From the IMG/VR virus record IMGVR_UViG_3300017773_000066, positions 1 to 33,189 of that record: DNA of 33,189 nt. One strand, given 5' to 3'. Below, piece by piece: positions 5,173 through 33,189 of this stretch. The notes under the pieces are model-generated. The model searched no databases, was not told the origin of the DNA, and saw nothing but the letters and a program-made list of their open reading frames with translations. The translations under genes and the position numbers were made by a program. Each line of letters starts with the position of its first letter. The stretch's first letter is position 1. The DNA is from a virus.

Positions 5173-6639
5173 ATGGCAATTACAGGAGCAACTAATACAG
5201 TTGCAGCCCCACAAAAGCAGACGTTATCGACTAACTATATCGATTTTACGTCTGGCACTACTCAAGGTTGGGCACAACAATACTTACCAGACTTGATGGA
5301 AGGTGAGGCCGAAGTATTCGGTTCAAGAACAATTTCAGGATTTTTAGAGCAAGTTGGTGCAGAAGAGCCAATGTCTGCTGATCAAGTTATTTGGTCAGAG
5401 CAAGGTCGTCTACACTTGTCTTACACTGGTAAAGTGACTTCTACAAACGCAGGTACTGCGTCAGGTGGTCAAATTACTATTGAAAACGACATTGATGGAA
5501 CTTCAGACTTTACTGCTACAGCTCACGGTATTCGTCCAGGTGACATTATCTTGTGTGCTCACAACAATCCAGGTGGTGTATTTAGAGCTAGAGTTGAAGA
5601 CGTTGCAAACGCTGTTTTAGACGTAACTCCTTACGGTGTTGCAGACTTAACTGCTCACAACGCTACAGCTGCAGATGCTTTAACTATACTAGTTGTAGGT
5701 TCTGAGTTTAAGAAAGGTGATTCAGGTCGTAGCTCTGCTAACGCTCCAGATTTCAAAACTTTCAACAACAAGCCAATTATCTTAAAAGACTACTACGAGA
5801 TCTCTGGATCTGATGCAGCTCAAATTGGTTGGGTGGAAGTTACTGGTGAAGACGGACAAAACGGATACTACTGGTACTTAAAAGCTGAAGGTGACACTCG
5901 TTCACGTTTCGCTGATTACTTAGAGATGGCTTTGATTGAATCTGAGAAAGGTGCTAACGCGGATAACGTGTCTGAAGGTATCTACGGAACTGGTACAGGT
6001 ACTAATAGTACTGGTACTGAAGGTTTATTCTCTGCTATTGAAGGAAGAGGTAATGTTACTACTGGTGTTACTGGTGTTAACGCTGCTACTGACCTAGCTG
6101 AGTTTGACGCTATCTTAGCTGAGTTTGACAAGCAGGGTGCTATTGAAGAAAACATGATGTTTGTAAATAGAGCTACGTCTCTAGCTATGGACGATATGTT
6201 AGCTGCAATGAACTCTTACGGTGCTGGTGGTACTTCTTTCGGAGTATTCAACAACTCTGAAGATATGGCATTAAACCTAGGATTCTCTGGATTCCGAAGA
6301 GGTTCTTACGATTTCTACAAGTCTGACTTCCGTTACTTAAACGATAAGGCTACTCGTGGATCTATCAACGATGCTTACAAAGCTGAAGCTATCCGAGGGG
6401 TTATTATTCCTGCTGGTGTATCTACAGTGTACGACCAAACATTAGGTAGAAACTTAAAGCGTCCGTTCTTACACGTACGTTATAGAGCTTCTCAGATGGA
6501 AGATCGTAGAATGAAGTCGTTCATCACTGGTTCTGTAGGTGGAAACATCACTGACTCAATTGATGCAATGCAAGTTCACTTCTTATCTGAAAGATGTTTA
6601 GTAGTACAAGGTGCTAACAACTTCATGTTAATGAAGTAA
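5173..6639 (+). CDS. Major capsid protein
   Basis: A 488-residue protein following the scaffold and closed by a strong terminator, as expected for the most abundant virion protein. The N-terminus (LSTNYIDFTSGTTQGWAQQY) and the C-terminal segment with YRASQMEDRRMKSFITGS followed by DSIDAMQVHFLSERC resemble major capsid proteins from uncultured marine tailed phages. An HK97-like fold is expected from the family but not directly visible. Residues about 95-180 form a Gly/Ala/Thr-rich beta segment that could be an inserted surface domain. Codon use differs from neighbouring genes: Asn, Phe and Tyr favour C-ending codons (AAC, TTC, TAC) and Ala favours GCT, a pattern typical of translational selection on highly expressed genes. 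Confidence 0.88.
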   Translation: MAITGATNTVAAPQKQTLSTNYIDFTSGTTQGWAQQYLPDLMEGEAEVFGSRTISGFLEQVGAEEPMSADQVIWSEQGRLHLSYTGKVTSTNAGTASGGQITIENDIDGTSDFTATAHGIRPGDIILCAHNNPGGVFRARVEDVANAVLDVTPYGVADLTAHNATAADALTILVVGSEFKKGDSGRSSANAPDFKTFNNKPIILKDYYEISGSDAAQIGWVEVTGEDGQNGYYWYLKAEGDTRSRFADYLEMALIESEKGANADNVSEGIYGTGTGTNSTGTEGLFSAIEGRGNVTTGVTGVNAATDLAEFDAILAEFDKQGAIEENMMFVNRATSLAMDDMLAAMNSYGAGGTSFGVFNNSEDMALNLGFSGFRRGSYDFYKSDFRYLNDKATRGSINDAYKAEAIRGVIIPAGVSTVYDQTLGRNLKRPFLHVRYRASQMEDRRMKSFITGSVGGNITDSIDAMQVHFLSERCLVVQGANNFMLMK

Positions 6640-6648
6640 TATTGATTA

Positions 6649-6680
6649 GGTCGGGGCTTCGGCCCCGATCTTTTTTTTTT
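6649..6680 (+). terminator. Rho-independent terminator after the capsid gene
   Basis: A nine-pair stem (6649-6657 with 6662-6670, including one G-U pair) closes on the stable tetraloop C(UUCG)G and is followed at once by ten T residues (6671-6680). It starts ten bases after the capsid stop. It should end or attenuate the head transcript and protect the 3' end of the capsid mRNA, allowing capsid to be expressed above the downstream tail genes. Confidence 0.95.
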
Positions 6681-6700
6681 AATTTTTATTTTATATTATT
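6681..6700 (+). promoter_or_regulatory. A/T-only leader before the first neck gene
   Basis: Twenty A/T bases separate the terminator T-run from the ATG at 6701. The string ATTTTATATTAT recurs in the leader at 3948-3964. No Shine-Dalgarno box is present. If the preceding terminator is fully effective, a promoter must lie here or transcription must read through; no clear promoter box was found. Confidence 0.35.
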
Positions 6701-7537
6701 ATGGCAAAAAAACAAACTACAAAGAAGGTAGCTGAAACAGAAATTAAAGCTACTAACGAAACGCAGGAAGTGGTTATTGAAAAACCAAAACCTGTAGCAA
6801 CTCCTAAAAAACCTTCTTGGGAAATAAAAGATAGAATGTACAACCTTAAAGGTAATAGATCACCTTTGAGCTATCAGTTAAAAGCGGCTGGTATATACTA
6901 TTTTGACGAAGGAAAAGGTTATGAAAGAGAGTTAAAGAACACTACTAATCAAAGAACTCCGTTTGTAGATGAAATGCAAGGTGAGCAAAGATTAGAACAT
7001 ATAATTTTTAGAAACGGAGCTTTGTTTGTTCCTAAAAACAAAACGGTATTACAAAAACTATTATCGTTATACCACCCTCACAAAGACTTGATATACAAAG
7101 AGTACAAACCTGTTGAAGAAGCTGCTAGTCAACTAGACTGGTTAGAGATAGAAGCAGACGCTTTAGTGTTAGCTAAAACTCTAGACATCGATAAGATGGA
7201 AGCTATCATGCGAGTAGAATTAGGGTCTAAAGTATCTGAGATGAGTTCTAAAGAACTTAAACGAGATTGTCTACTGTTTGCTAAGAGAAATCCTTTATTG
7301 TTCTTAGAATTAGTTCAAGACGAAAACGTAGAGCTTAGAAACTTTGGTATTAGAGCTACTGAAGAAGGTATATTAAAATTATCTTCTGATCAAAGACACT
7401 TTGAGTGGGGTAACACTGGTAGAAAACTAATGACTGTTCCTTTTGACGAGCACCCATATTCAGCGCTAGCTGTTTGGTTCAAGACTGATGAAGGTATGGA
7501 AGTGTATTCTAACATAGAAAAGCGACTAAGTATGTAA
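6701..7537 (+). CDS. Conserved structural-region protein of unknown function
   Basis: A 278-residue protein of unrecognised function between the capsid and neck genes. The first 40 residues are Lys/Thr/Glu-rich and probably disordered. Residues about 40-130 hold a compact beta-containing segment with RNGALFVPKNKTVLQKLLS, which looks like a small folded domain. The C-terminal half is helical and charged and includes LKRDCLLFAKRNPLLFLELV, then ends in an aromatic stretch (HPYSALAVWFKTDEGMEVYS). It is flanked by a UUCG terminator upstream and a UUCG hairpin downstream, so it may form its own short transcript. By position it could be a head decoration, head-closure or minor virion protein. Confidence 0.75.
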   Translation: MAKKQTTKKVAETEIKATNETQEVVIEKPKPVATPKKPSWEIKDRMYNLKGNRSPLSYQLKAAGIYYFDEGKGYERELKNTTNQRTPFVDEMQGEQRLEHIIFRNGALFVPKNKTVLQKLLSLYHPHKDLIYKEYKPVEEAASQLDWLEIEADALVLAKTLDIDKMEAIMRVELGSKVSEMSSKELKRDCLLFAKRNPLLFLELVQDENVELRNFGIRATEEGILKLSSDQRHFEWGNTGRKLMTVPFDEHPYSALAVWFKTDEGMEVYSNIEKRLSM

Positions 7538-7540
7538 TTA

Positions 7541-7589
7541 CTTTATAGAAGAGTAACCACTCTTCGGGGTGGTTACTTAACTATAAAAG
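7541..7589 (+). terminator. Strong UUCG hairpin without a T-run
   Basis: A 12-pair stem (7551-7562 with 7567-7578, two G-U pairs) closes on a UUCG tetraloop. An outer helix pairs CTTTATAG (7541-7548) with CTATAAAAG (7581-7589, one bulge), separated from the inner stem by a symmetric AA/AA internal loop. No T-run follows, so it is not a classical intrinsic terminator. It could be an mRNA stability or processing element, or a weak terminator. Confidence 0.6.
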
Positions 7590-7597
7590 ATAATTAA

Positions 7598-8344
7598 ATG
7601 GCAGTAAGTGTAGATACGGTATATCAACGTGTACTAGCATTAGCAAATAAAGAACAAAGAGGCTACATAACTCCACAGGAGTTTAACCTTTTAGCCAATC
7701 AAGCTCAACAACAATTGTTTGAGCAATACTTCTATGACTTAAATCAATTCCATAGAAATCCTGGCAACGCTACGGCGTCTGGTGATTCTGTTGATGACAT
7801 TGAAGATAAGTTAAGTATATTTCAAGTATATAATTTTACTTTAACGCAGACTAACGGCAACGAGATATTATTACCTATAAACGACACTATAGGTTATCCA
7901 GCTGGTACTAGCGATATGTATAGGCTTGAAGAAGTAAGACATCTAGAAAATATATGCTCTCAGGTTACGCCTAAGAAACTACACTTAATGAAAAAAGGTG
8001 TTTTTGGTGGGCAACCTTTATTAGAGCACCCAGCTTATATTAGACAAAACAACGCTATACAAGTTTTTCACTTAAACTCTGTAGGCGGTTTTGCAAATAT
8101 ATTTAACGACGTAAGATGCGACTACATAAGAAAACCTAAAAAAGTAGAGTGGGATTATGTTGTCGTAAATGAAAAAGCTTTATACAATGCTAACGGAGCT
8201 GCTGATTTTGAGGTTCACCCTTCAGAAGAAGCTAGACTAGTGTTAAAAATATTAGAGCTAGCTGGTATAGTTATTAACAAACCAGGTCTATCGAGCTATG
8301 GTAAATCAGAGCACGTAGAAGCTGACGCAAAACGTAAATCATAA
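7598..8344 (+). CDS. Neck/connector-type structural protein
   Basis: A 248-residue protein lying before the larger neck gene. The N-terminus (VYQRVLALANKEQRGYITPQ) is followed by a helical EFNLLANQAQQQLFEQYF segment, and I recognise this pattern from structural proteins of uncultured marine phages without an assigned role. The middle is beta-rich (residues 70-170), and residues 170-248 include a short helix EEARLVLKILELAGIVINKP. It overlaps the next gene by one base through a TAATG stop/start junction, suggesting translational coupling and joint assembly. A head-tail adaptor or completion protein is most likely, from position and size; a precise role is inference. Confidence 0.7.
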   Translation: MAVSVDTVYQRVLALANKEQRGYITPQEFNLLANQAQQQLFEQYFYDLNQFHRNPGNATASGDSVDDIEDKLSIFQVYNFTLTQTNGNEILLPINDTIGYPAGTSDMYRLEEVRHLENICSQVTPKKLHLMKKGVFGGQPLLEHPAYIRQNNAIQVFHLNSVGGFANIFNDVRCDYIRKPKKVEWDYVVVNEKALYNANGAADFEVHPSEEARLVLKILELAGIVINKPGLSSYGKSEHVEADAKRKS

Positions 8345-20976: not shown

Positions 20977-23900
20977 ATGACTGAAGAAAAAGTTAGAGAG
21001 GTTGTTCAATTAATGATTGATAACAACGAGTCACCAGAAGATATAAAAAGATTTGTTAAAAAAGCTAAAAATTTTTTAGACAGTCAAACAAAGGAAGACC
21101 AAACACAGTCGGATGCCACTGTGACGGAAGAAAGTACGGCATCCACTTTGGAAGATGGTTCTTCGGATTCGCTGCAACTAGATGATGAAGCTCAGCAAAT
21201 TGTAAACAGCTATCACCCTAACTATAAAAATTTAGAAGCCGATATAAAAAGTGGAAAAATAACAAACCAGCAAGTTATTGATTTCTACAGTACTACCAGC
21301 AAAGATGCTGAAGAGCCAAGCGTTACTCTGAAGCCTACTAGAAATCAAGAGCTGCAAGGCTTTTATGACAAGTACAGAAGAGAAGGAGAAACTAATGAAG
21401 AACTCATGCAGCGCATAAGCCCTGTTGAAATGAGAGCTGACGTTACCCAAGGTGAGCCTCTAAGTCTTGAAGAACAAATGCTAGCAGCTGGAGCTCAAAC
21501 ACAAACGTCTTACATGGGTAGTGATGTTAAAGCTCCTGGAAGCATGCCAACAACTACTATAGACGGTGTAGTATATAATCCTAACGATCTTTTTGGAAAC
21601 GCTTATACGTTGGCAGATGGATCTACAGCTAGTCAAGACGATATAAAAAGATTTGAAGAGCTTAAAATGTTATACGAATACCAGCAGTTTGAAATAGCCG
21701 ACCCAAACAGAACAAGGTCTCGATTGGCTGGTGAGTACGATGAAATGTCTGACATAGAGATACAGCAAAAGTTTATTGAAGATCCAAAAAAAGCAGAAGA
21801 GCAAGATCAACAAGTCGCGGTAGTTGAAAACCAATTTAACTTTAAAGACTACCAAAACTATAAAAGTGAAAAAACAACTAATGATTTTTCTAAATATGTA
21901 GCGGAAAACACAGCTGACATAACGGCTAGAATGCAAGCTGAATTTAACGAAAGAGCTATAGGTATAACAGATAAAGCGGAGTTAGAAAAACTAAAAGAGG
22001 TTGTACAAGAAAAATACTCTTCTGAGTATACAGATTTTGCAGATAAAAAGTGGGATGCTTGGGTTGAATCATACAAGCCTAAATACTCTTTGTGGGACGG
22101 AAAGCTTAAAGATATATCGCTAAAGCTAGACGAAAAAGGCTTTGCAGATTTATCTGGCCCTGAAAAAAAGCAGGCTTTGCAAGAAGTCTTAGATGAGCAA
22201 ATGAGGCTTATAGGAGATGTTCCTCAAGCTGAAGACATGAAGAACGAATACTGGGCTCACTTTTATGATAAGCTCTCAACAGACCCCGAGAAAGGCTACA
22301 CTCAATTTGCTATTAAAGATATAGCTACTCAAGTTGGAAACGACGCTGAAAAAGAACTAAAAAAACTAGCTAAAAACTACAAGACTATATACTCTTCTGT
22401 TGGAGGTGGTACTATGGCTGGAAGTAGCACTACTACAACGCCTATGCAACAAGCTGTAAGAGATAATCCTAGTCTTGCTACAGCTATGAAGTATAGAGAT
22501 AGAATATTAGACAACCCAGAGGCAATGTCTGAAAGTGGTTTTGTAAACTACTTTAGAGGTTTAACTTCTATGGAAGGTTACAAATACATACCTTTTGCAG
22601 GTGGAGCTATTGATATGGCTGAGAAATATGAAATATTAAAGCTTTCTAAAAAAGAAAACAGAACTCAATCAGAAGAAGACGCATTAGCTTTATATCAACT
22701 AAACAATTTATCAAACCAAAAAGTATCAGAGCTGTCTACAGGTTACAACGCTGGTAAGCAAACTGCCGAGTCATTACCTTTTATGGCTGAAATAATTGCT
22801 ACTGGAGGTATTTATTCTACCGTTAAAGAAGGTACTCAAAAAGGTATTAAAAAAGCCTTGGTCAAAAGAATAGATGACACTTTAGCTAAAAACATGAGAT
22901 TTAAAAAAGGAACTTCTCAAATGTTGTTTGTTCCTAAAAACACTAAGTTTCAAGTTATAGACAAAGCGTCTGATGCTATAGGTGTTATAGCTGCAGCTAC
23001 AGCTCAATCTACAGCTCAACCTCAAAGATACTTAGCTGGAACATTTGAAAACATGACGCCTCAAATGGCTTTTGCTTATACTGATCAGTCTGATGGATTA
23101 GTAAATACTATAACAGAGCAAGGCGATGGATTTACAAAAGCTTTTTCAAAAGCATACGCTACAAACTCTTTAGAGTATATAACAGAACGTATGGGTACGC
23201 TAGCTCCTAGCGCTATAAAAAAGCTTATACCTAAAGGAACATCAGATGAGTTTGTTAAAAGATTGTCTCTAGGCGTTTACATGCGCAAATTTGGGTTAAA
23301 CAAAGCTGAAGCTGTAGCTCACTTTACAAAAAATCAAGCTGGTTGGAACGGTGTATTAGGTGAAATATCTGAAGAGATGTACAATATACCACTATCTAAC
23401 TTAGTAAACGGGCAAGGTTTAAACTTTGGAGATTTTGGTATGCAAGAGTTTAAAGAGATGGCCATAAGTATAGGCTCAACTTCTTTAGCTTTTGGAGGTG
23501 GTAGTGTTGCATATAATAATTCTATAGGTAGACAAAACCCTGCTTACTACGTGGATAATCAAAGGTTTGAAGATAAAAAAGCAGCATTAAAAAAACTAAA
23601 GCAATTAAAGTCTGATGGCAAGTTAGATGCTAATACAGATATAGAGGTAAGAAATGACTTCGTGGCTTTTGATGAGTTTTCAAATTACTTAGAGCAAAAC
23701 GGCTTGAGTAATGATATTATAAAAACTGGAGGTAAAGGCGTACCTCAAGAAGCTATAACAGCTACAGAAGTAGAAATGCTTAATGAAATAGAAAGCCCAG
23801 AGCTTAGAAGTCAGCTTGAAGAAATAAGTGGAGAGCTTGGTAGTTTAGAACAAAAGAAACAGGATATACTAAACAGACCTACTAAAGGTAAACAAGACGT

Positions 23901-26900
23901 TGCAAAACAAGCTGCACAAATAGAAGAGATAGACGCTGAAATATCTAGACTTACTGAAGCTAAAAACACAGTATTAAGTCCAGTAAAAGAGTCTATAATA
24001 GAATATAAAAAAGAAGAAAGATATAAGCAACAACTAGCTAACGCTAAAGAAGCTCAAAAAAGTTTAAATAAAACTTCACCTATAAAAACTAGGTTTGTAG
24101 AGGCGCCTGACGCAGAATCTGCGGCTGAGTTAATGAGACAAGATGTTTTAAACGCTAACGGATTACAGCAAGTAGAAGGAACTCCAGGTAGTAGCGATGA
24201 TGGTAATCTATACATCGACATAAACACTGGTAACGAAGTTGTGTTAGATCAAGGGTCTTTAAACAAAATTGGACAAGTTATCAACGAATCTAAAACAGCA
24301 CATGGTTTTGCCGGTAATTTTCTTGATCCTACTACTGGAGAAAGACTGCTTGTAATAAACAAGCAAGCAGCCGTAGAGGGTATGGGTATGAACGTAGCTT
24401 CTCACGAGTTCTTTCATGAGTTTTTAAGAAATACATTAAGAAATAATCCTGAAGTTTCTGTGGCCTTAGGAAGAGCTCTTCAAGGTTATTTAGCTAACAT
24501 AGATCCAAGACAAGTTAGAGATAGTGATTTTAGAAATAGATTAGCAGCATATCAAAATGCTCCAGAGTCTATACAAACCGAAGAGACGATGGCTATATTT
24601 GCTGACGCCTTAGCTAACGGCACTATGCAGTACAACGAAAATGCTATGACTAAGCTTGGAGATATTATTAGAAGAATAATGCAGGGCCTTGGTATGCGCG
24701 TTAAGTTTAAGTCTGGTAGAGATGTTTTTAATTTTGTAAAAGATTACAATAAAGCTATTGAGTCAGGAAAAGGTTTAAATAGAGGTTTAAGAAAAACTGC
24801 TATTGAAGGAGCTATAATAAGCGGAAACATAAAAGCTGAAGCTCAGCTTCTTAAAAACATGGTTGCTGGTTTTAATAAACAGATAAAAGCAGACATGCCT
24901 GATGTAGAAGATCTAACACTTGATGATTTAGAAGCTATGGGCGTTAGGTTTTCAAAGGAAGGCTTGCCAGCTGAAAAGATGAGCAAGGAAGAGCTAGCTA
25001 AGTCTGTTAATGATACTATGGCTCCTCTAATAAACCTTAAAAAGAAAAGAAACAACGGCACTATAACAGAGCAAGAAGAGCGTATGCTTGATCGTATGCA
25101 AGCTGACATACCTGGTAGAGCCGCTTTCTTTTACACGGGTATGGCTCAAGATGCTTTTAGCAGATCTTTAAATTTAGCTCCAACAGAAGATATTAGAAAC
25201 GATCTATTAAACAATAAAGAAGACATAATGTCTCAGCTATTGTTTGATCCTGGAACAGCTACAGCTAAAGCTAGAACTGTGTTAGGCTTGCTTCAAGACT
25301 TTGACCCAGCAAAACATAAATATGAAAATGCAGCCGCTTATGTTAATCAGTTTTTTAAAAGAAGATCACAAGAAATATTTGCTAGAAGAGGAGTTGAAGA
25401 TGTAGCTACTAAGTCACAAGATCAAGACGAAGCTATAAAAAAGAAAGTTGAAGGTATGACAGGGCCTAGCTCTGATCAAGTAGAAGCTAAAACTAAAGGT
25501 AGAGTTTTAGGCGCTGATCTTGGTTTACACAAATACGATCAAGACGGAAACAGAGTAGATGATTTAAGAAAAGAAGCTGACAAGCAGTTAGATATGTTAT
25601 TAGAGCAAGACTCTCCTACGTTTGCTGAGTCCCCTTCTTTTACAGCTCCTTTTATATCTGAAGTATCAGGAGTGCCAGCTAAAAAAATAACAGATAAAAC
25701 AGCAAACTTAAATCAACACCTAGGGCCAGCTAGAAGATTTAACGCTAAGTATAAGGACATGCTTATAGCAATGAGACCTAGGCATTACACCGTGAAAATG
25801 GTTCAATCTAAATCTGGTGAGTTTGAAGCTAGACCTGACAAAGCTATTGGTATACCTAACAAAATTAAAAGTTTAGGTTATAACAAAGGCACTAGAAAAT
25901 CTAACTTAACACCTTGGTATATCAAGCCTATAAGCTCGTCAGAGTTTGAAAATTTTATAGCCCCAAGAAATACAGATGGAACTGTAAATGAGAGTGATAG
26001 AAATATAGAGCAAAACAATAAAGGTTGGTTAAGCTTGCTTGATAAAGTTATGAGTAATCAAGAGATACGTATGGCTGCTATAGACAGAGGTTTACCTATG
26101 CAGTGGATTGGTAGAATGCGAGACGGTAACTCTAACTATTTATTTTCAAAAGAAATAAGAGAAATGGGCACAGATAACGAGGCTGTGTTCTACGCTAGAC
26201 TACCTGAGCTTGGTTCTCAACCAATGACGTCTGATCCTAAGTCTATACAAAATGCTTTAATGCTAGTTTATCCAGACATAATGACTAGAGGCACAGCTGG
26301 TAAAATAGCTAAGTCAATATCTAAGTTTATAAAACAATACAAAACAATAGAGCAAGGCTTCGCTGGGCTTGATAAAGTACCGCCAAGAACTTTTGAAGAG
26401 TTTTTAGCAGACAACATAAATTTACCCGAGTTTAATATAACTAAACTTCTTGACGTAAAGCAAGATGGTAAGTTGATGAAAAACTCAGACTTATACGACA
26501 ATATAGAGTTTGTTAAAAACCAAAGAGCTTCTGTAGTTAACATGGGTAATTACATGATACAAGACCTTGGCATGAAACCTTCTGAAGTAATCAGATATAT
26601 GTTAGCTTACTTAAAGCCGATGTATGCTGGTGCTAGTAAAATAGGTAGAGGTAGTATTGGTGTAAAAGAAGATGGAACTCTTTTTTACAAAGAAGGTTTT
26701 GAAAGCGGTACACCTAGAGGCATGGTATTTGAAAGCGTTGGTGATTTTATTAAAAACGCAGTAAACAAAATAGAAGGCGTAAACATCGATATGTCTAAGG
26801 TTACTGACGCCGGCGGAAGTATACAAGGTAAAAAAATGCTAGAAGTATATAGCGCTGATGTATCAGCTTTACCTCAAAGTGCTAAGGGTATGATGAACAA

Positions 26901-29900
26901 GCTGAAAAAGCTTGGTGAAAAAGAATTTTTTAAAGCTGTAGATAAAGAAACAAAAGAGGTTCGCCAGCTTATAGATGTAATGATGAGGTATTTTGTTGAC
27001 CAAGTTAAAGATGGTAATTTAGGTAGAAACGATTTAGCAATGATGATGTTGTCTATGAACGCTGGTTTAGACACGCCTATGAGAAGAGCCGCTAACTTAG
27101 CATATATAGGATCTGATGTTGAAAACATGGATCCTAGCGATATGACTAAAGAAACAGTAGCTTACGAGCACATGATTCCAGCAAATTACATGGCTGTTAA
27201 AATACTAGATCAGTATATGAACAAAGGTGGTATACCAAATCTAGATGAGTTTTATAAAAACTACAACGTAGCTATTATATCAGCAAAGATGGACGATGTT
27301 TTAAAGAAGCAAGGTCTACTTTCTATGATGCCTGTAAATTACGATTTAGATATGCCTTCTTGGACTAGGTATTACAATTTTAGAACTCAAGGGTTTAGTG
27401 ATGTTGTAGGCTTAAAAGCTTTAGACCCTAAAGCCGCAGATGTTTCTAGCACAGAGGCTTTTGAAAAAGCAAACAAGTTGTTAATTGACAGCCCAGTAGA
27501 TTTACAAAATAAAAAGAATTACGATAAAGCTATAAATAATGCTAGACTATTTTCTAAAGAAACACCTTCAAAAGGTATGTCTACGTTTGACTTTGACGAA
27601 ACCTTAATAGACAAAGGTGAAAACTTTATTATAGCTAAAAAAGACGGTCAAGAGGTTAAGATTAGTTCTGGTCAATGGCCAATACAAGGACCTCAATACG
27701 CGGCTGACGGTTGGAAGTTTGACTTTACAGACTTTGTAAATGTTAGAGGCGGTGTTGATGGACCGTTACTACAGAAAATGAAAAACCAAATAGCTAAGTA
27801 TGGATCTAAAAACGTATACGTTTTAACAGCTAGACCGGCTGAAGCTGCTACAGCTATACATGGCTGGTTAAAAACTAAAGGAATTAATATACCTTTAAAA
27901 AATATTACCGGCTTAGGAAACAGCACTGGAGATGCTAAGGCTCAATGGTTCATAGATAAGTACGCCGAAGGCTATAATGATATGTACTTTGTAGATGATG
28001 CTTTACCTAATGTTGAAGCTGTTAAACATGTGTTTGATCAGCTTGATATTAAGGGTAAGTCTGTCATTGTAAGACCTAGGTTTAGTCTTGATCCATCTGT
28101 AGAGCTTGACAATATGTTAGAGCGTAGCAAGGGTGTTGATAGAAACGCTGTGTTTAATAGAGTTCAAGCAAGAAACAAAGGAAAAGTAAACAAAGTAAGA
28201 CAGCTATTTATACCGCCAAGCGCTGATGATTTTGAAGGCCTGATGTATTATAATATGGGTAAAGGAAAACAAGGCGAGGCCGATGCTAAGTTTTTCAAAA
28301 ATATGTTTTATGATCCTTACAATAGAGCAGACAGAGAGCTTGATATGTACAAACAAACATTAAGAGAAGATGTTCAAGCTATAAAAAAACGTTTTCCTGA
28401 AGTAGCTAAAAAATTAAAAAAAGACTTTAGCAATACTGGATATACAAATGAGCAGGCTATGCGTATATACCTGTATCATCAAGTTGGATACGACGTGCCT
28501 GGTATGTCTGAAGCTGACGTCAACAATGTAGCACAAGCCGTAGCATTAGACCCTGAAATGACTATGTTTGCCAACTTAATTAGAAACGCTATGAAACTCG
28601 ACGAGTATGTGCAGCCAACTGTAGGTTGGAACGCTAGCTCTTTTAATGGAGATATGTCAGACGCGGCTAAGATCAAAAGAGATGGATACATGCAAGAGTG
28701 GAACGAAAACATTGAAGCTACGTTTACTCCTGAAATGTTAAACAAGCTAGAAGCCATACATGGGTCAGGATATAGAAGTGCCCTTGAAGACTCTATAGCT
28801 CGTATGAAGTCTGGTAGCAATAGACCTACTATAAAAGATAAAAGAGTTAACGGCTTTTTAGACTGGTTAAACGGCTCTGTTGGTGCTATCATGTTCTTTA
28901 ATGCTAGATCAGCTGTGCTACAAACTTTGTCTACGGTTAACTTTATTAACTTTGAAGACAATAATATATTCGCGGCTGCTAAAGCTTTTGCAAATCAAAA
29001 ACAGTATTGGGCAGACTTTGTTATGCTGTTCAACTCACCAATGCTTAGACAAAGAAGAGGAGGTTTACAATCAGACTTAAACGCTTCAGAGCTAGCACAA
29101 CTAGCAGAACAAGGAGGTGTTAAAGCTGTTATTGGTAGATTACTAGAGTTTGGTTTTACCCCTACACAAATAGCGGACAGCTTCGCTATATCTGCCGGTG
29201 GTTCTACATACTACAGAAACAGAGTAAATAAATATGTAAGCGAAGGTATGAGCCAGTCAGAAGCTGAAGCTCAAGCTTTTATAGACTTTCAAGAAATAGC
29301 AGAGGCTACTCAGCAGTCTAGTAGACCAGACAAAATATCTCAAGAGCAAGCATCAGTGTTAGGTCGTTTAATACTAGCGTTTCAAAACACTCCAATGCAG
29401 TACAACAGACTTATAAAGAAAGCTGCGTTAGACTTAATGAACGGTAGAGGTGATACTAAAGCTAACATATCTAGAATACTATACTATGGAGCTGTGCAAA
29501 ATATTATATTCTCATCTCTTCAAACAGCTTTATTTGCCGTGCTGTTCGATGACGATGATCAAGAAGAAGAGTTTTTAGACACAAAAATAGAACGTATAAC
29601 AAATGGAACTCTTGACTCACTACTTAGAGGTTCTGGTATATATGGCGCTGTATTATCTACAGTTAAAAACACTATCATGAAATACATGAGTGAGAGAGAA
29701 AAAGGTATGCGCGCTGACAACGGTAGAGTTTTAATTGAAGCTCTTAACGTGTCTCCACCTCTTGGATCAAAAGCTAGAAAACTATATTCAGCTATGACCA
29801 CAGACAAGTGGAATCAAGATATTTATGATAAAATACCTTTGTACAATATTGATAATCCAATATGGGATGCTGCAGGTAATACTGTCGAAGCTGTAACAAA

Positions 29901-30378
29901 TGTTCCGGCTGGACGTATACAAAGAAAAATATCTAACTTAAAAGCAGCTTCAGATAATGAAAATGCAACATGGCAGAGATTAGCTTTATTTTTAGGTTGG
30001 GACAAGTGGGGCTTAGGTATTGAAAGACCTGAAGAAATAGAAGAGGCTAAAGAAGAAGTTAAAGAAGAGAAGAAAGAGCAGAAAAAGAAAGAGCGTAAAG
30101 AAAAAGAAGCTGAAGTAAAAGAAGAAAAAGAAAAAGATTACTTAAAAGATCAGCAAAAAGAAAAAGAAGAAAATAAAAAGCCTAGATGCGCGGCAGCTAC
30201 AAGGAGCGGTAGTAGATGCAAAGGCACGCCTGTTGACGGAACGTATTGTACTATACATACAAAAGTAGAAAAAAGAAGTGATGGTAAAGAAGTACAGTGC
30301 AAGAAAGTAAAGTCTAACGGTGACCGCTGTAAAATGAAGACATCAAGTAAATCAGGATTATGTTATTATCACGACTAA
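20977..30378 (+). CDS. Giant polyvalent protein: metallopeptidase-like, HAD-like, LPD38-like, tandem zinc modules
   Basis: A 3133-residue protein, probably packaged and ejected. Residues 1-100 are acidic and Ser/Thr-rich. Hydrophobic stretches at about 589-630, 665-685 and 826-850 could contact membrane. A coiled coil spans about 929-1010. A metallopeptidase-like site HEFFH lies at 1143-1147, with EETMAIFAD at 1202-1210 as candidate third ligand. A HAD-like domain at about 2200-2365 has DFDET (Asp2205, Asp2207), LTARP (2283-2287), Lys2321 (DAKAQWF) and VDDALPN (Asp2340/2341), the full catalytic set. Residues about 2638-3010 (ARSAVLQTLSTVNF; SVLGRLILAFQNTPMQYNRL) resemble domain LPD38. A Lys/Glu linker leads to two CCCH modules: C3071, C3081, C3091, H3094 and C3108, C3118, C3129, H3132. 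Polyvalent proteins of this kind deliver effectors to the host at infection. Confidence 0.85.
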   Translation: MTEEKVREVVQLMIDNNESPEDIKRFVKKAKNFLDSQTKEDQTQSDATVTEESTASTLEDGSSDSLQLDDEAQQIVNSYHPNYKNLEADIKSGKITNQQVIDFYSTTSKDAEEPSVTLKPTRNQELQGFYDKYRREGETNEELMQRISPVEMRADVTQGEPLSLEEQMLAAGAQTQTSYMGSDVKAPGSMPTTTIDGVVYNPNDLFGNAYTLADGSTASQDDIKRFEELKMLYEYQQFEIADPNRTRSRLAGEYDEMSDIEIQQKFIEDPKKAEEQDQQVAVVENQFNFKDYQNYKSEKTTNDFSKYVAENTADITARMQAEFNERAIGITDKAELEKLKEVVQEKYSSEYTDFADKKWDAWVESYKPKYSLWDGKLKDISLKLDEKGFADLSGPEKKQALQEVLDEQMRLIGDVPQAEDMKNEYWAHFYDKLSTDPEKGYTQFAIKDIATQVGNDAEKELKKLAKNYKTIYSSVGGGTMAGSSTTTTPMQQAVRDNPSLATAMKYRDRILDNPEAMSESGFVNYFRGLTSMEGYKYIPFAGGAIDMAEKYEILKLSKKENRTQSEEDALALYQLNNLSNQKVSELSTGYNAGKQTAESLPFMAEIIATGGIYSTVKEGTQKGIKKALVKRIDDTLAKNMRFKKGTSQMLFVPKNTKFQVIDKASDAIGVIAAATAQSTAQPQRYLAGTFENMTPQMAFAYTDQSDGLVNTITEQGDGFTKAFSKAYATNSLEYITERMGTLAPSAIKKLIPKGTSDEFVKRLSLGVYMRKFGLNKAEAVAHFTKNQAGWNGVLGEISEEMYNIPLSNLVNGQGLNFGDFGMQEFKEMAISIGSTSLAFGGGSVAYNNSIGRQNPAYYVDNQRFEDKKAALKKLKQLKSDGKLDANTDIEVRNDFVAFDEFSNYLEQNGLSNDIIKTGGKGVPQEAITATEVEMLNEIESPELRSQLEEISGELGSLEQKKQDILNRPTKGKQDVAKQAAQIEEIDAEISRLTEAKNTVLSPVKESIIEYKKEERYKQQLANAKEAQKSLNKTSPIKTRFVEAPDAESAAELMRQDVLNANGLQQVEGTPGSSDDGNLYIDINTGNEVVLDQGSLNKIGQVINESKTAHGFAGNFLDPTTGERLLVINKQAAVEGMGMNVASHEFFHEFLRNTLRNNPEVSVALGRALQGYLANIDPRQVRDSDFRNRLAAYQNAPESIQTEETMAIFADALANGTMQYNENAMTKLGDIIRRIMQGLGMRVKFKSGRDVFNFVKDYNKAIESGKGLNRGLRKTAIEGAIISGNIKAEAQLLKNMVAGFNKQIKADMPDVEDLTLDDLEAMGVRFSKEGLPAEKMSKEELAKSVNDTMAPLINLKKKRNNGTITEQEERMLDRMQADIPGRAAFFYTGMAQDAFSRSLNLAPTEDIRNDLLNNKEDIMSQLLFDPGTATAKARTVLGLLQDFDPAKHKYENAAAYVNQFFKRRSQEIFARRGVEDVATKSQDQDEAIKKKVEGMTGPSSDQVEAKTKGRVLGADLGLHKYDQDGNRVDDLRKEADKQLDMLLEQDSPTFAESPSFTAPFISEVSGVPAKKITDKTANLNQHLGPARRFNAKYKDMLIAMRPRHYTVKMVQSKSGEFEARPDKAIGIPNKIKSLGYNKGTRKSNLTPWYIKPISSSEFENFIAPRNTDGTVNESDRNIEQNNKGWLSLLDKVMSNQEIRMAAIDRGLPMQWIGRMRDGNSNYLFSKEIREMGTDNEAVFYARLPELGSQPMTSDPKSIQNALMLVYPDIMTRGTAGKIAKSISKFIKQYKTIEQGFAGLDKVPPRTFEEFLADNINLPEFNITKLLDVKQDGKLMKNSDLYDNIEFVKNQRASVVNMGNYMIQDLGMKPSEVIRYMLAYLKPMYAGASKIGRGSIGVKEDGTLFYKEGFESGTPRGMVFESVGDFIKNAVNKIEGVNIDMSKVTDAGGSIQGKKMLEVYSADVSALPQSAKGMMNKLKKLGEKEFFKAVDKETKEVRQLIDVMMRYFVDQVKDGNLGRNDLAMMMLSMNAGLDTPMRRAANLAYIGSDVENMDPSDMTKETVAYEHMIPANYMAVKILDQYMNKGGIPNLDEFYKNYNVAIISAKMDDVLKKQGLLSMMPVNYDLDMPSWTRYYNFRTQGFSDVVGLKALDPKAADVSSTEAFEKANKLLIDSPVDLQNKKNYDKAINNARLFSKETPSKGMSTFDFDETLIDKGENFIIAKKDGQEVKISSGQWPIQGPQYAADGWKFDFTDFVNVRGGVDGPLLQKMKNQIAKYGSKNVYVLTARPAEAATAIHGWLKTKGINIPLKNITGLGNSTGDAKAQWFIDKYAEGYNDMYFVDDALPNVEAVKHVFDQLDIKGKSVIVRPRFSLDPSVELDNMLERSKGVDRNAVFNRVQARNKGKVNKVRQLFIPPSADDFEGLMYYNMGKGKQGEADAKFFKNMFYDPYNRADRELDMYKQTLREDVQAIKKRFPEVAKKLKKDFSNTGYTNEQAMRIYLYHQVGYDVPGMSEADVNNVAQAVALDPEMTMFANLIRNAMKLDEYVQPTVGWNASSFNGDMSDAAKIKRDGYMQEWNENIEATFTPEMLNKLEAIHGSGYRSALEDSIARMKSGSNRPTIKDKRVNGFLDWLNGSVGAIMFFNARSAVLQTLSTVNFINFEDNNIFAAAKAFANQKQYWADFVMLFNSPMLRQRRGGLQSDLNASELAQLAEQGGVKAVIGRLLEFGFTPTQIADSFAISAGGSTYYRNRVNKYVSEGMSQSEAEAQAFIDFQEIAEATQQSSRPDKISQEQASVLGRLILAFQNTPMQYNRLIKKAALDLMNGRGDTKANISRILYYGAVQNIIFSSLQTALFAVLFDDDDQEEEFLDTKIERITNGTLDSLLRGSGIYGAVLSTVKNTIMKYMSEREKGMRADNGRVLIEALNVSPPLGSKARKLYSAMTTDKWNQDIYDKIPLYNIDNPIWDAAGNTVEAVTNVPAGRIQRKISNLKAASDNENATWQRLALFLGWDKWGLGIERPEEIEEAKEEVKEEKKEQKKKERKEKEAEVKEEKEKDYLKDQQKEKEENKKPRCAAATRSGSRCKGTPVDGTYCTIHTKVEKRSDGKEVQCKKVKSNGDRCKMKTSSKSGLCYYHD

Positions 30379-31397
30379 TAGTTTTATTATTTTTATTAAC
30401 TAGCGTTTGTCAAGCGCAAGTGTTAAAGAAAACGTTTAAGTTTTCTACGTTTTATATAGCAGCAAATGGTAATACATCATTGGCTGATAGAGATATATAC
30501 TCTGTTCAAGACGGAGCTGTACTGTATGACACAGTGTTTACCCCGTTTGATTACTCATTAGTTATGGGTATACGCAAGATTAAAAGGTTTGGTTATGAAG
30601 ATATAACTAAGTTTAAAGACGGTACAGAGTCTGCTTATGGCGACGCCGCTAGCGTAGGTCTATCACCGTTTGAGTATTTATTTCAAGCAAACTACAAAAG
30701 GCAAGAAGGCGTTGAGTATTTAGATCAACATCACTTTGTTAGATATGTTAAACCAAAATGGCTTGCTAAAGTAGAATATATTAAAGATGGTTTTGCAGAC
30801 ATAGAGTATTTTGAAAGTACGCAGCGATTAAGATTAAACGGTAATAAAAAGTTGTCGTTTAACATCGGCGCTGTACAAAGATTAGCAGAGCCGTATGGCT
30901 TTGATCCACTAGAGCAATGGCAACTAGAAAACAATTACTTGCATTATACATGCTTAGCAATTGATGAAGGATACAGCGTAGACGTGTATGAAAATGAATA
31001 TAAAGATCCTGATGGTAATATAGTAGCAACTAGCGCTGATGTTTGGAAAGAAGTTGTTATACCGCAAGTGTTGGAAGATTATGTTGAAAAGAAGCGCAAC
31101 GAGCTACCTAATCAATGGCAACACTCTCTAGTAATTGGCTTTGATTATTACTATTATAAAAAGAATTTTTGGTTACACAGCTGGGGTAACTTAATGCCTT
31201 ATCATTATAATGATGGCGGAACGTACTCGTATCACAATTTTAACGATGGTGAACAGTGGTATGATTACTCAGGTGGTTTAATCGTAGGTACTAAGATAAC
31301 TAAAAACTTAGGCATGTTTATAGAAGGTAAGTATAACAAGTACTGGAACAGAGAGTGGTATGACTTTAAGTGCGGTATCAATTATGTAATATTCTAA
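30360..31397 (+). CDS. Exported outer-membrane-protein-like protein
   Basis: A 345-residue protein whose ATG lies inside the last codons of the giant gene (19-base overlap, different frame), which suggests translational coupling. The N-terminus is a classic signal peptide: a positive residue, a hydrophobic core LIVLLFLLTSV, and a likely cleavage between A19 and Q20. The mature part has alternating aromatic and polar residues in short strands (for example YYYYKKNFWLHSWGNLMPYH) and ends in Phe, as outer-membrane beta-barrels do. No lipobox was accepted because Cys17 lacks a proper -1 residue. Outer-membrane protein is inferred. It may modify or block a receptor, aid release, or be a virion surface protein. 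Phage genes of this type are uncommon. Confidence 0.7.
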   Translation: MLLSRLIVLLFLLTSVCQAQVLKKTFKFSTFYIAANGNTSLADRDIYSVQDGAVLYDTVFTPFDYSLVMGIRKIKRFGYEDITKFKDGTESAYGDAASVGLSPFEYLFQANYKRQEGVEYLDQHHFVRYVKPKWLAKVEYIKDGFADIEYFESTQRLRLNGNKKLSFNIGAVQRLAEPYGFDPLEQWQLENNYLHYTCLAIDEGYSVDVYENEYKDPDGNIVATSADVWKEVVIPQVLEDYVEKKRNELPNQWQHSLVIGFDYYYYKKNFWLHSWGNLMPYHYNDGGTYSYHNFNDGEQWYDYSGGLIVGTKITKNLGMFIEGKYNKYWNREWYDFKCGINYVIF

Positions 31398-31400
31398 GAT

Positions 31401-31724
31401 ATGAGTTTCACTTTACCAGGCATAAGCTATAAAGAACCAGACAGTCCTTTAGATAAAAAGAAAAGGAAAAAGAAACCCGATGTTCGCAAAACTACCAAAG
31501 GAAAAGGTAGAAATTTTAGAACAGTTAAAGAAGGTGCTGGTATGACAGCTAAAGGAGTTGCGGCATACAGACGTAAAAACCCTGGTAGTAAACTAAAAAC
31601 AGCTGTGACAGGCAAGGTAAAGCCTGGCAGCAAAGCAGCTAAGCGAAGAAAAGCTTTCTGCGCTAGATCAAAAAGTTGGACTAGCGAAAGAGGTAAAGCT
31701 GCTAGACGAAGATGGAAATGTTAA
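31401..31724 (+). CDS. Very basic small protein resembling DUF6321
   Basis: A 107-residue Lys/Arg-rich protein. The C-terminal half (GAGMTAKGVAAYRRKNPGSK, then KAAKRRKAFCARSKSW and RGKAARRRWKC) matches a small domain I recall as DUF6321, which recurs in marine phages and large viruses; this name is from memory. The N-terminal 40 residues are a Lys-rich disordered tail. The charge suggests binding to DNA or RNA, or packaging with the genome. It begins three bases after the OMP stop and starts a run of small basic genes. Confidence 0.65.
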   Translation: MSFTLPGISYKEPDSPLDKKKRKKKPDVRKTTKGKGRNFRTVKEGAGMTAKGVAAYRRKNPGSKLKTAVTGKVKPGSKAAKRRKAFCARSKSWTSERGKAARRRWKC

Positions 31725-31735
31725 AATAATTAGAT

Positions 31736-31987
31736 ATGTATACACCTTATAAAATGATGGGCTCAACTCTTTATGGTAAACCCATGGCAAAAAAAATGTT
31801 AACTTCTGCTCAAAAAACTCTACCTACAGAGTTAAAAGAAAAAATGATAGATTCAGGAGAGTACGAAGGACCTCTTAATAAATATGTTTCAGATGCTCAA
31901 AGAAAAGCCGTGCATGCTAGCAAAGCAGACGGTGGTAAAGGAGCTCCTACAGCTAAAAAAGGTTGCAAGTCAAAATATAGAAAATAA
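31736..31987 (+). CDS. Small basic protein of unknown function
   Basis: An 83-residue protein with a helical middle (KEKMIDSGEYEGPLNKYVSD) and a Lys/Gly-rich C-terminal tail ending KGCKSKYRK. No family was recognised with certainty. Its stop overlaps the next start by one base (TAATG). It shares its basic tail and position with neighbouring small proteins and may bind nucleic acid. Confidence 0.65.
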   Translation: MYTPYKMMGSTLYGKPMAKKMLTSAQKTLPTELKEKMIDSGEYEGPLNKYVSDAQRKAVHASKADGGKGAPTAKKGCKSKYRK

Positions 31988-32166
31988 TGGCTTACGATAT
32001 TACAAATAGCGGTGCTTTAAAAAAAATCAGTGGAGCTTGCAAAGCTGCGGCTAAACGTAAGTTTAAGGTTTGGCCTTCTGCTTACGCTTCAGGTTGGGGC
32101 GTACGCTGTACTAAAGCTGGTGGACCTAGTAAGTTTGGCGGCGGTAAAAAGAAAAAGAAAAAGTAA
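31987..32166 (+). CDS. 59-residue basic protein with WPSAYAS motif
   Basis: A short ORF, MAYDITNSGALKKISGACKA at the start, overlapping the previous stop and the next start by one base each (TAATG at both ends). Residues about 24-43 contain KFKVWPSAYASGWGVRCTK, a motif I recall from short phage and large-virus proteins, and the tail is a run of lysines after GGG. It contains Cys18 and Cys41. The coupled junctions at both ends and the recognisable motif make it real despite its size. Function is unknown. Confidence 0.75.
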   Translation: MAYDITNSGALKKISGACKAAAKRKFKVWPSAYASGWGVRCTKAGGPSKFGGGKKKKKK

Positions 32167-32552
32167 TGGCCTTTAAAATGAAGGGCTTTAAAGCTCATAA
32201 CATGTTTGATCCTAAGACTGGCAAGAAAATTGTTGCTGATACTTACGATGAGCATGTAGAGCTTGGTGAAAAAGGATATACGCACGAACCTCCTACTAAA
32301 AAAAGAAGTAAAGTTAAAGGTGGAGGTACTAAAAAAGTATGTTTACCAGCTTCTAAGGTTAGAAGTATGAGTAAGTCTGAAAGAGCTAAAGTAGTAAGAG
32401 CTAAACGCAAAGCCGCTAAAGGCGGTAAGTATAAAAGATCTAGCAAGTCTTTTGTTAAAGGTGCTCGTAAAAAAGGCGCTACACTAAGAGACTGGTTTAA
32501 AAAAGAAAACTGGGTACAAGTAGGTAATCCATCTAAAAAATGTGGTGAATAA
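32166..32552 (+). CDS. Basic protein with conserved C-terminal DWFKKENW motif
   Basis: A 128-residue protein, Lys/Arg-rich throughout. The middle (KVRSMSKSERAKVVRAKRKA) is helical and strongly basic, and the C-terminus RDWFKKENWVQVGNPSKKCG resembles a short motif seen in other phage basic proteins. It overlaps both neighbours by TAATG junctions. The first 40 residues are acidic-basic mixed (FDPKTGKKIVADTYDEHVEL). Nucleic-acid binding is inferred from charge only. Confidence 0.7.
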   Translation: MAFKMKGFKAHNMFDPKTGKKIVADTYDEHVELGEKGYTHEPPTKKRSKVKGGGTKKVCLPASKVRSMSKSERAKVVRAKRKAAKGGKYKRSSKSFVKGARKKGATLRDWFKKENWVQVGNPSKKCGE

Positions 32553-32830
32553 TGGCAACTGAAATAGGTAAAGACACTAAAGTAAAATTAAGTTTAGAGA
32601 CTATCATTTCTCTAGGAGTTGTGCTAGTAGGCATGACAGGCATGTGGTTTACGCTTCAAGCAGATATAGCTGAAGCTAAAGAACTTCCTGAACCACCAGA
32701 TCCAGAAGTTACACGCATGGAGTTTGATATGAAAGATCAAATGATACGTAACACTATCATGAACACGCAAGAAGATGTAACTGAAATAAAAGCTACGTTA
32801 GAAAAAATTGAAGATAAACTTTATAAGTAA
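32552..32830 (+). CDS. Small membrane-anchored coiled-coil protein
   Basis: A 92-residue protein with one predicted transmembrane segment at residues 17-35 (TIISLGVVLVGMTGMWFTL) after a short, Lys-rich N-terminus, then a Pro/Glu linker and a charged helix (about 58-92) with heptad-like spacing (EDVTEIKATLEKIEDKLYK). It could be a holin-like or spanin-like protein or a membrane anchor for a complex, but no defining motif was seen. It overlaps both neighbours by one base (TAATG). Confidence 0.65.
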   Translation: MATEIGKDTKVKLSLETIISLGVVLVGMTGMWFTLQADIAEAKELPEPPDPEVTRMEFDMKDQMIRNTIMNTQEDVTEIKATLEKIEDKLYK

Positions 32831-33171
32831 TGAATAAGTTTACTAAATTTTTATATGCGCTTATAATTATAATCGCTTTTACTATTGGCGTAGCTTATAG
32901 TCAAGTTAAAGTAATACACTTCAACGCTGGTTGGAACAAAGCTAACGACGTCGAGTGGTTTAATAAAATATCAGACGCTGGTAAGAAAAACTTAAGTATT
33001 GACAACGCTGACGTACAGAAGAAATACGCTATTGCTATTGTACCTACAATAATAGTGTTTGATGAAGGTGAAGAAGTAAAACGCTTTCAAGCTGATCTTA
33101 GTTTTAAAATGGTTGCTACAAGAGAAGAGATACAGGAATATATTGATGAACTTATAATAAGTAAATTTTAA
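32830..33171 (+). CDS. Exported thioredoxin-fold protein lacking the CxxC pair
   Basis: A 113-residue protein. Residues 1-24 form a signal peptide or membrane anchor (FLYALIIIIAFTIGVAYS), with a likely cut before Q25. The rest follows the thioredoxin fold: strand VKVIHFNAG, then the position of the usual CxxC is occupied by WNKA, and a cis-Pro strand at YAIAIVPTIIVF (Pro72). The protein has no cysteine, so a redox role is unlikely; chaperone, binding or scaffold functions are possible. It overlaps both neighbours through TAATG. Fold call is from strand order and cis-Pro, not from a database match. Confidence 0.72.
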   Translation: MNKFTKFLYALIIIIAFTIGVAYSQVKVIHFNAGWNKANDVEWFNKISDAGKKNLSIDNADVQKKYAIAIVPTIIVFDEGEEVKRFQADLSFKMVATREEIQEYIDELIISKF

Positions 33172-33189
33172 TGAAGTATTTAATTACAC
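33171..33189 (+). CDS. Start of a further coupled gene (partial)
   Basis: An ATG overlaps the preceding stop by one base (TAATG) and opens MKYLIT before the window ends. Only six complete codons are visible, so the product is unknown. The overlap repeats the pattern of the previous junctions, which supports a real gene. Confidence 0.5.

Follow-up and report, generated by a model that had tools for sequence, protein, structure and literature searches.

The virus record analysed here, a stretch of 33,189 bases that we call the window, encodes an exported thioredoxin homologue in which asparagine occupies both cysteine positions of the CxxC motif. Hundreds of marine viruses of Bacteroidota, all uncultivated, encode this NxxN protein, and in them its gene is linked to those of an inner-membrane protein and an outer-membrane barrel. 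The findings suggest a viral tool directed at the host envelope and not a redox enzyme. We give roughly even chances to the explanation that the protein is a thioredoxin homologue that has lost its redox role and serves as a periplasmic protein-binding adaptor, the soluble member of a three-gene envelope module. Judged from the sequence, the replacement of the catalytic cysteines by a conserved Asn pair would have removed thioredoxin redox chemistry permanently, and the conserved partner-binding face would be put to use for binding protein. The module would then consist of an outer-membrane barrel, an inner-membrane protein with one TM segment and a helical tail in the periplasm, and the soluble NxxN thioredoxin.

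The window and its thioredoxin gene

The window begins inside a terminase gene, followed by portal and virion genes. Relatives of the terminase occur in phages of Flavobacterium, Cellulophaga, Tenacibaculum and Maribacter, so that the window's host is probably a Bacteroidota bacterium, and in MW202828 from a spring. The features discussed below are collected in Table 1. The thioredoxin open reading frame starts with ATG, and its translation lacks any Cys. Its first base doubles as the final base of the 92-aa gene's stop codon (a 1-base overlap), and the next gene starts at the base right after its own stop. For the mature part, dN/dS against three close relatives is 0.026/0.50, 0.060/0.93 and 0.055/0.74 (ratio 0.05-0.07). 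The frame is a real gene under purifying selection.

Table 1. Positions of the module and its conserved elements in the window.
Feature	Position	Strand	Basis
345-aa outer-membrane beta-barrel protein (predicted), Q-rule signal peptide, ends in Phe	30360..31397	+	AF2 pLDDT 86, Foldseek
92-aa inner-membrane protein, one N-terminal TM, then helical, weakly heptad-patterned tail, predicted periplasmic	32552..32830	+	upstream linkage, flank charge
Exported thioredoxin-fold protein, Asn at both CxxC positions, 113 aa	32830..33171	+	ORF, 225 distinct relatives (among matches listed), AF2 model and structure matches
Signal peptide, residues 1-24 (..GVAYS), predicted cleavage before Gln25	32830..32901	+	Q-rule
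N36-K-A-N39, replacing the CxxC motif	32935..32946	+	hhalign and MAFFT register vs E. coli TrxA; NN in 215/225
V71-P72-T73, cis-Pro loop	33040..33048	+	Pro in 224/225 distinct sequences (among matches listed)
A88-D-L-S-F92, conserved loop after last strand	33091..33105	+	ADLSF/ADISF in 100/101 distinct close relatives, SDISL in 1
Next gene, first 6 codons (MKYLIT), cut by window end	33172..33189	+	equivalent in closest relative L062 at 6314-8278

An earlier note, made from the letters of the window, had described the export signal as retained, and the relatives agree. Among the matches listed, Gln stands at the predicted cleavage position in all 101 distinct close relatives, and [AGSC]Q, the Bacteroidetes Q-rule, is found in 214 of 225 distinct sequences. 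Gln after the cleavage site is described as a rule for Bacteroidota signal peptides (PMC5837995), and by this rule the thioredoxin-fold protein qualifies as a substrate of Bacteroidota Sec/SPI export. Nearly the same signal peptide (MNKFTKFLYAF..) opens T9SS cargo genes in L047 (483-2342), L078, L081, L088 and L089, and such near-identity between cargo and thioredoxin points to signal peptides that are swapped as modules. L051-L060 have free-standing hydrophobic frames of 23 aa with an MNKFTKFLYA start like that of the window's signal peptide; those of L051, L056 and L059 lie among mostly opposite-strand genes, some of them replication-like. No module genes were found in L047 and L051-L060.

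A thioredoxin fold with weak single-sequence resemblance

Against Pfam PF00085, the window protein alone scores E 0.0065 and 16.9 bits (cut-off 23.5), over residues 58-90 only. Several longer relatives lie above the cut-off (L170 25.7, L178 28.0, L196 37.5, L221 32.3), and L215 and L302 lie below it. The family profile matches PDB thioredoxins at 1.2e-4. The AlphaFold2 model of the window protein (pLDDT 79, pTM 0.65) is thioredoxin-like: its best Foldseek match among thioredoxins has an E-value of 9e-6, and its best VIA-align match has Z 11.9 and rmsd 1.7 over 82 residues. The thioredoxin frame proposed in the earlier note is thereby supported. The protein is a thioredoxin homologue whose resemblance is weak for the single sequence but solid when its relatives are taken together.

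The register of the active site rests on the longer members of the family, which keep the first strand and helix and whose FWAEWNKSN aligns with FWAEWCGPC of E. coli TrxA. With hhalign, the long members align to TrxA at a probability of 97.5% and the window's subfamily at 86%, and both alignments place N36 at the first Cys and N39 at the second. One HMMER alignment instead opens a five-residue gap after the Trp. In our view, the short subfamily alone would leave the register of NxxN against CxxC arguable, and the alignment of the long members settles it.

The family has in common with thioredoxin (PF00085, E. coli TrxA) the fold, a W/F before the active-site pair and the cis-Pro loop, the last of which the earlier note had rightly reported as kept (P72). 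Unlike TrxA, it has both Cys replaced by Asn, a shortened helix 2 and an export signal, and in the window's subfamily the first strand and helix are missing. In addition, the buried Asp before the active site of TrxA (D26) is mostly replaced by His, Gln or Glu: position 30, which stands in its place, is H in 89, Q in 69, E in 56 and another residue in 11 of the 225 distinct sequences.

An asparagine pair as the family signature

Relatives were collected by several scans. The single-protein scan, whose pattern includes the NxxN region, gave 60 loci, 11 of which (L047, L051-L060) match over the first 21-25 residues only. The patterns of the profile scan, which covers the best 80 of at least 346 relatives among 600 stretches, and of the scans anchored on the 92-aa protein do not include that region. 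The viral-contig scans keep the best 80 each, and the family is larger than this sample, with its far edge undersampled. Duplicates and one incomplete thioredoxin (L038) were dropped before the counts on 101 and 225 sequences; L035 and L036 have no usable thioredoxin frame. One further scan with an NxxN-containing pattern supplied loci used solely in the search for the barrel gene.

Among the matches listed, the two CxxC positions in 225 distinct sequences from viral contigs are NN in 215, LN in 4, AV in 4 and VN in 2, and Cys in none, as the earlier note's reading of a missing CxxC would have it. The ten exceptions to NN are L042, L307-L313, L326 and L346. In the 101 distinct full-length sequences (the window with the single-protein and profile scans, among matches listed), 100 carry the pair N,N and 1 carries L,N. 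The pair holds when close relatives are thinned, with NN in 93 of 100 representatives at <80% identity and 27 of 31 at <60%. Over the 100 representatives thinned at 80% identity, N36 and N39 rank 5th and 3rd in conservation among 113 columns, which is unlike a decaying site; together with the low dN/dS, it argues for a site in use. Comparison of homologues at this position turned up no intact CxxC among the 225 distinct sequences (among matches listed), including those from loci picked via the neighbouring gene. A match of L204 to the pattern [WFY]C..C falls inside its signal peptide and not at the active site. In a distant subgroup (L310-L313), both Asn are gone, replaced by A and V, yet an exported thioredoxin-like protein and the 92-aa protein are still encoded.

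The earlier note had also stressed the lack of every other Cys. This is correct for the window's frame but does not extend to the family, since the mature part has no Cys in just 27 of 101 distinct close relatives and one Cys in 66. By these alignments, total absence of Cys is a subgroup trait, and the conserved NxxN is the signature of the family. A recent loss of function or a sequencing error in an ordinary thioredoxin could explain why the single sequence falls under the Pfam cut-off. Against it stand the absence of Cys at either position in the 225 distinct relatives (among matches listed) and the strong purifying selection, which rule out an artefact or a pseudogene and leave this explanation with a negligible probability.

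The rest of the thioredoxin partner-binding face is conserved, comprising W/F35, the cis-Pro72 loop and the A88-D-L-S91 loop. Redox-inactive thioredoxin-fold chaperones are known in ERp29 and E. coli YbbN/CnoX, where the fold serves protein binding and not chemistry, and a YbbN structure (3qou) is among the Foldseek rows for the window model. These proteins differ from the NxxN family in compartment, domain make-up and gene context, and neither is known to have such an Asn pair. T7 DNA polymerase is a case in which a phage uses thioredoxin as a binding partner and not for redox; that thioredoxin, however, is a cytoplasmic host protein with its Cys present, unlike the phage-encoded, exported NxxN protein. 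The NxxN protein is a variant of the known redox-dead thioredoxin fold; taken together, the three genes may form a new module. We found no mention of an NXXN thioredoxin in place of CXXC in the open-access literature, and no report there of thioredoxin-like proteins of marine Bacteroidetes phages or of thioredoxin with T9SS in phage genomes. The change from CxxC to NxxN gives a natural series in which the turn of a redox enzyme into a binding protein can be studied.

Linkage to two envelope genes

The 92-aa gene lies directly upstream of the thioredoxin gene in 95 of 105 loci, or 95 of the 102 with room for it. The mean charge of its TM flanks is -0.3 before and -2.6 after the segment, which fits an N-in/C-out topology. 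The heptad pattern of the tail is weak and was reached by 251 of 5000 shuffles. When loci were anchored on the 92-aa protein (best 80), a thioredoxin-family frame was present in 77 of 77 usable loci, all 77 with [WF]NxxN, and anchoring on its most distant relatives (best 80) again gave 77 of 77; each time, 3 of the 80 loci were set aside for too little downstream sequence. Most of these frames directly follow the 92-aa gene, and a few lie farther away, with gaps of 282-350 in the first scan and 415 in L355 in the distant scan.

The model of the 345-aa protein is a barrel with a helical insert. In Foldseek, both matches at E<=0.001 are to the NanC porin and most other top rows are outer-membrane barrels; PDB matches are weak, and no fitting Pfam family was found. 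Outer-membrane phospholipase A (OMPLA) is among the many barrels matched, but there is no Ser among the invariant columns of the barrel alignment A6, which speaks against reading the barrel as this enzyme. The gene is present in 84 of 94 loci with >2.5 kb upstream, and a relative occurs in all of the 50 whole records searched, which were chosen from the 160 loci of the profile scan and the distant 92-aa scan (37 and 13, respectively). Of 262 barrel proteins, counted with overlapping loci not deduplicated, 258 have [AGSC]Q following the signal peptide and 181 end in Phe. The thioredoxin, 92-aa and barrel genes share a strand in all 85 loci compared and are contiguous in 56. In the window, four small Lys/Arg-rich proteins, one with DUF6321 (41.1 bits vs 28.5), are encoded between the barrel and 92-aa genes (31401-32552), and a 3133-aa protein (20977-30378) with a weak NCBIfam match over 25 residues near its end lies just before the module.

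This strict linkage makes phage-encoded partners more likely than a host factor. The earlier note had proposed binding of a host periplasmic factor, which becomes one option among several. In its inhibitory form, the NxxN thioredoxin would mimic a host thioredoxin-like protein and titrate its partners; a partner-binding face that is conserved while the chemistry is gone is what one would expect, but it leaves unexplained why the gene should be tied so strictly to those of the 92-aa protein and the barrel, and we regard this form as quite improbable. The envelope function unrelated to redox that the note also proposed is supported, as far as sequence can speak.

Spread of the module and linked histories

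In the 50 module records, the window terminase has a match of at least 75% identity in 23, 40-41% in 2 and 20-28% in 12, and was not found in 13; the records may be fragments. The module thus occurs in phages with very different terminases. Conversely, the podovirus MW202828 matches the window in terminase, portal and coat at 68, 52 and 44% and has none of the three module genes, so that virion plan can do without the module. Among the isolated phages of INPHARED, we found no clear match to the window thioredoxin (three weak hits), the barrel, the 92-aa protein or the L062 cargo, and no match to the distant thioredoxins L340 and L329 or the distant 92-aa protein. The distant thioredoxin L318 gave one weak match there, in a Staphylococcus phage (28% identity over 55%). 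Genome contigs of 84,980 species gave only 3 loci, all in Bacteroidota MAGs and all accompanied, next door or close by, by the 92-aa protein and the barrel, which speaks against a host gene.

Without terminase control, the distance correlation between thioredoxin and barrel is rho 0.74 (84 loci), or 0.65 in 52 thinned loci. Likewise without this control, it is 0.65 for thioredoxin and cargo (64 loci), 0.70 for barrel and cargo, and 0.72 for the holin-like protein and barrel (29 loci). The 92-aa protein does not share the history of thioredoxin and barrel (rho 0.15-0.19; 0.19 with thioredoxin). These values are suggestive only of a history common to thioredoxin, barrel and cargo from which the 92-aa gene departs. 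The thioredoxin-barrel correlation may reflect just shared genome history, the thioredoxin-cargo value being comparably high.

The Cys-rich cargo gene

The gene cut by the window end is complete in L062, where its product is an exported, Cys-rich protein of 654 aa that has 36 Cys and a T9SS type A sorting domain. The sorting domain scores above both cut-offs (PF18962, 32.5 bits vs 27; TIGR04183, 30.5 vs 23). The repeats of such cargo resemble GCTDxxAxNYxPxANxDDGSC and often come with a T9SS type A tail. Of 105 loci, 82 have a cargo domain or tail downstream, as do 48 of the 56 with >=5 kb of downstream sequence. In the whole records, a T9SS domain is found in 27 of 50 (24 over cut-off) and in 1 of 13 of the distant set. 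Phage-encoded cargo with a T9SS type A sorting domain is described for Cryophage, where it comprises endoglucanase, glycoside hydrolase 39 and PA14 proteins and where the main text does not mention thioredoxin (PMC7468147). Proteins of ~1200-1400 aa upstream of the module (L078, L081, L088, L089, L107, L111) have similar Cys-rich repeats and no evident signal peptide, and many of them have a YCKDCGIP motif near the end.

The presence of this cargo bears on a chaperone role, in which the redox-dead thioredoxin would keep the Cys-rich T9SS protein and the barrel unfolded in the periplasm, like a PDI-family escort. The frequency of cargo downstream, its correlation with thioredoxin and the dozens of Cys in cargo proteins such as that of L062 are all consistent with such an escort. 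However, a Cys-free protein is itself unable to make disulfides, and the T9SS domain is missing from many records, above all distant ones, in which thioredoxin, 92-aa protein and barrel persist; we consider the chaperone role unlikely. The same record counts rule out T9SS cargo as an obligatory partner, and the lack of active-site Cys rules out the thioredoxin as a disulfide maker for it.

A possible action on the outer membrane

For the adaptor itself, an action late in infection is conceivable though doubtful: the three proteins would span the envelope and work on the outer membrane of the host, a spanin-like role at lysis built from unrelated parts. The layout across inner membrane, periplasm and outer membrane, the structural-gene neighbourhood and the nearby holin-like, M15 peptidase and DUF5675 genes (30, 17 and 42 instances over 105 loci) would fit lysis. 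The holin-like protein scores under the Pfam threshold (19.3 vs 24.8 bits). Against lysis, only a minority of the loci have lysis genes nearby, and most of these do not directly adjoin the module. In addition, the separate history of the 92-aa protein weakens a three-way complex. In its predicted layout, the module resembles the two-component spanins (Rz/Rz1) of phages, which pair an N-in/C-out inner-membrane protein with a helical periplasmic part and an outer-membrane partner. Unlike Rz/Rz1, the module has a beta-barrel and not a lipoprotein in the outer membrane, an extra soluble thioredoxin and high sequence conservation. Spanins are described as very diverse (PMC6139136), so the conservation of the module counts against a spanin-like role. 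In one survey, the only spanins reported for phages of Bacteroidetes are unimolecular (PMC12596118). A crude regex scan of the genes of 107 loci, with flanks up to 8 kb, found no consistent lipobox family or u-spanin-like protein.

The module may instead be used against other phages. It would then serve superinfection exclusion or the remodelling of receptors, with the barrel and a partner in the periplasm altering the host surface or blocking DNA entry by competing phages. Exported surface and outer-membrane proteins would suit this role, as would occurrence in phages with very different terminases, expected of mobile immunity, and for phages of P. gingivalis it has been proposed that genes with Q-rule signals alter the outer membrane of the host (PMC10367356). 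However, gene order puts the module in a structural, probably late, region, and no lysogeny gene is apparent in the window. Exclusion genes of lytic phages are usually early, and we rate exclusion, too, as improbable. Returning to the adaptor, we put forward only tentatively that the module is a phage-specific trans-envelope machine unlike known lysis and exclusion systems, in which the Asn-Asn thioredoxin would couple an inner-membrane helix to the barrel and which would have spread among different lineages of phages of uncultivated marine Bacteroidota. Little is known of how Bacteroidota phages breach or alter the outer membrane, and the module is a concrete, testable candidate. A PAP2-superfamily phosphatase is also encoded near the module in L067 (6595-7137; 29.2 bits vs 27.2), with 16 further instances.
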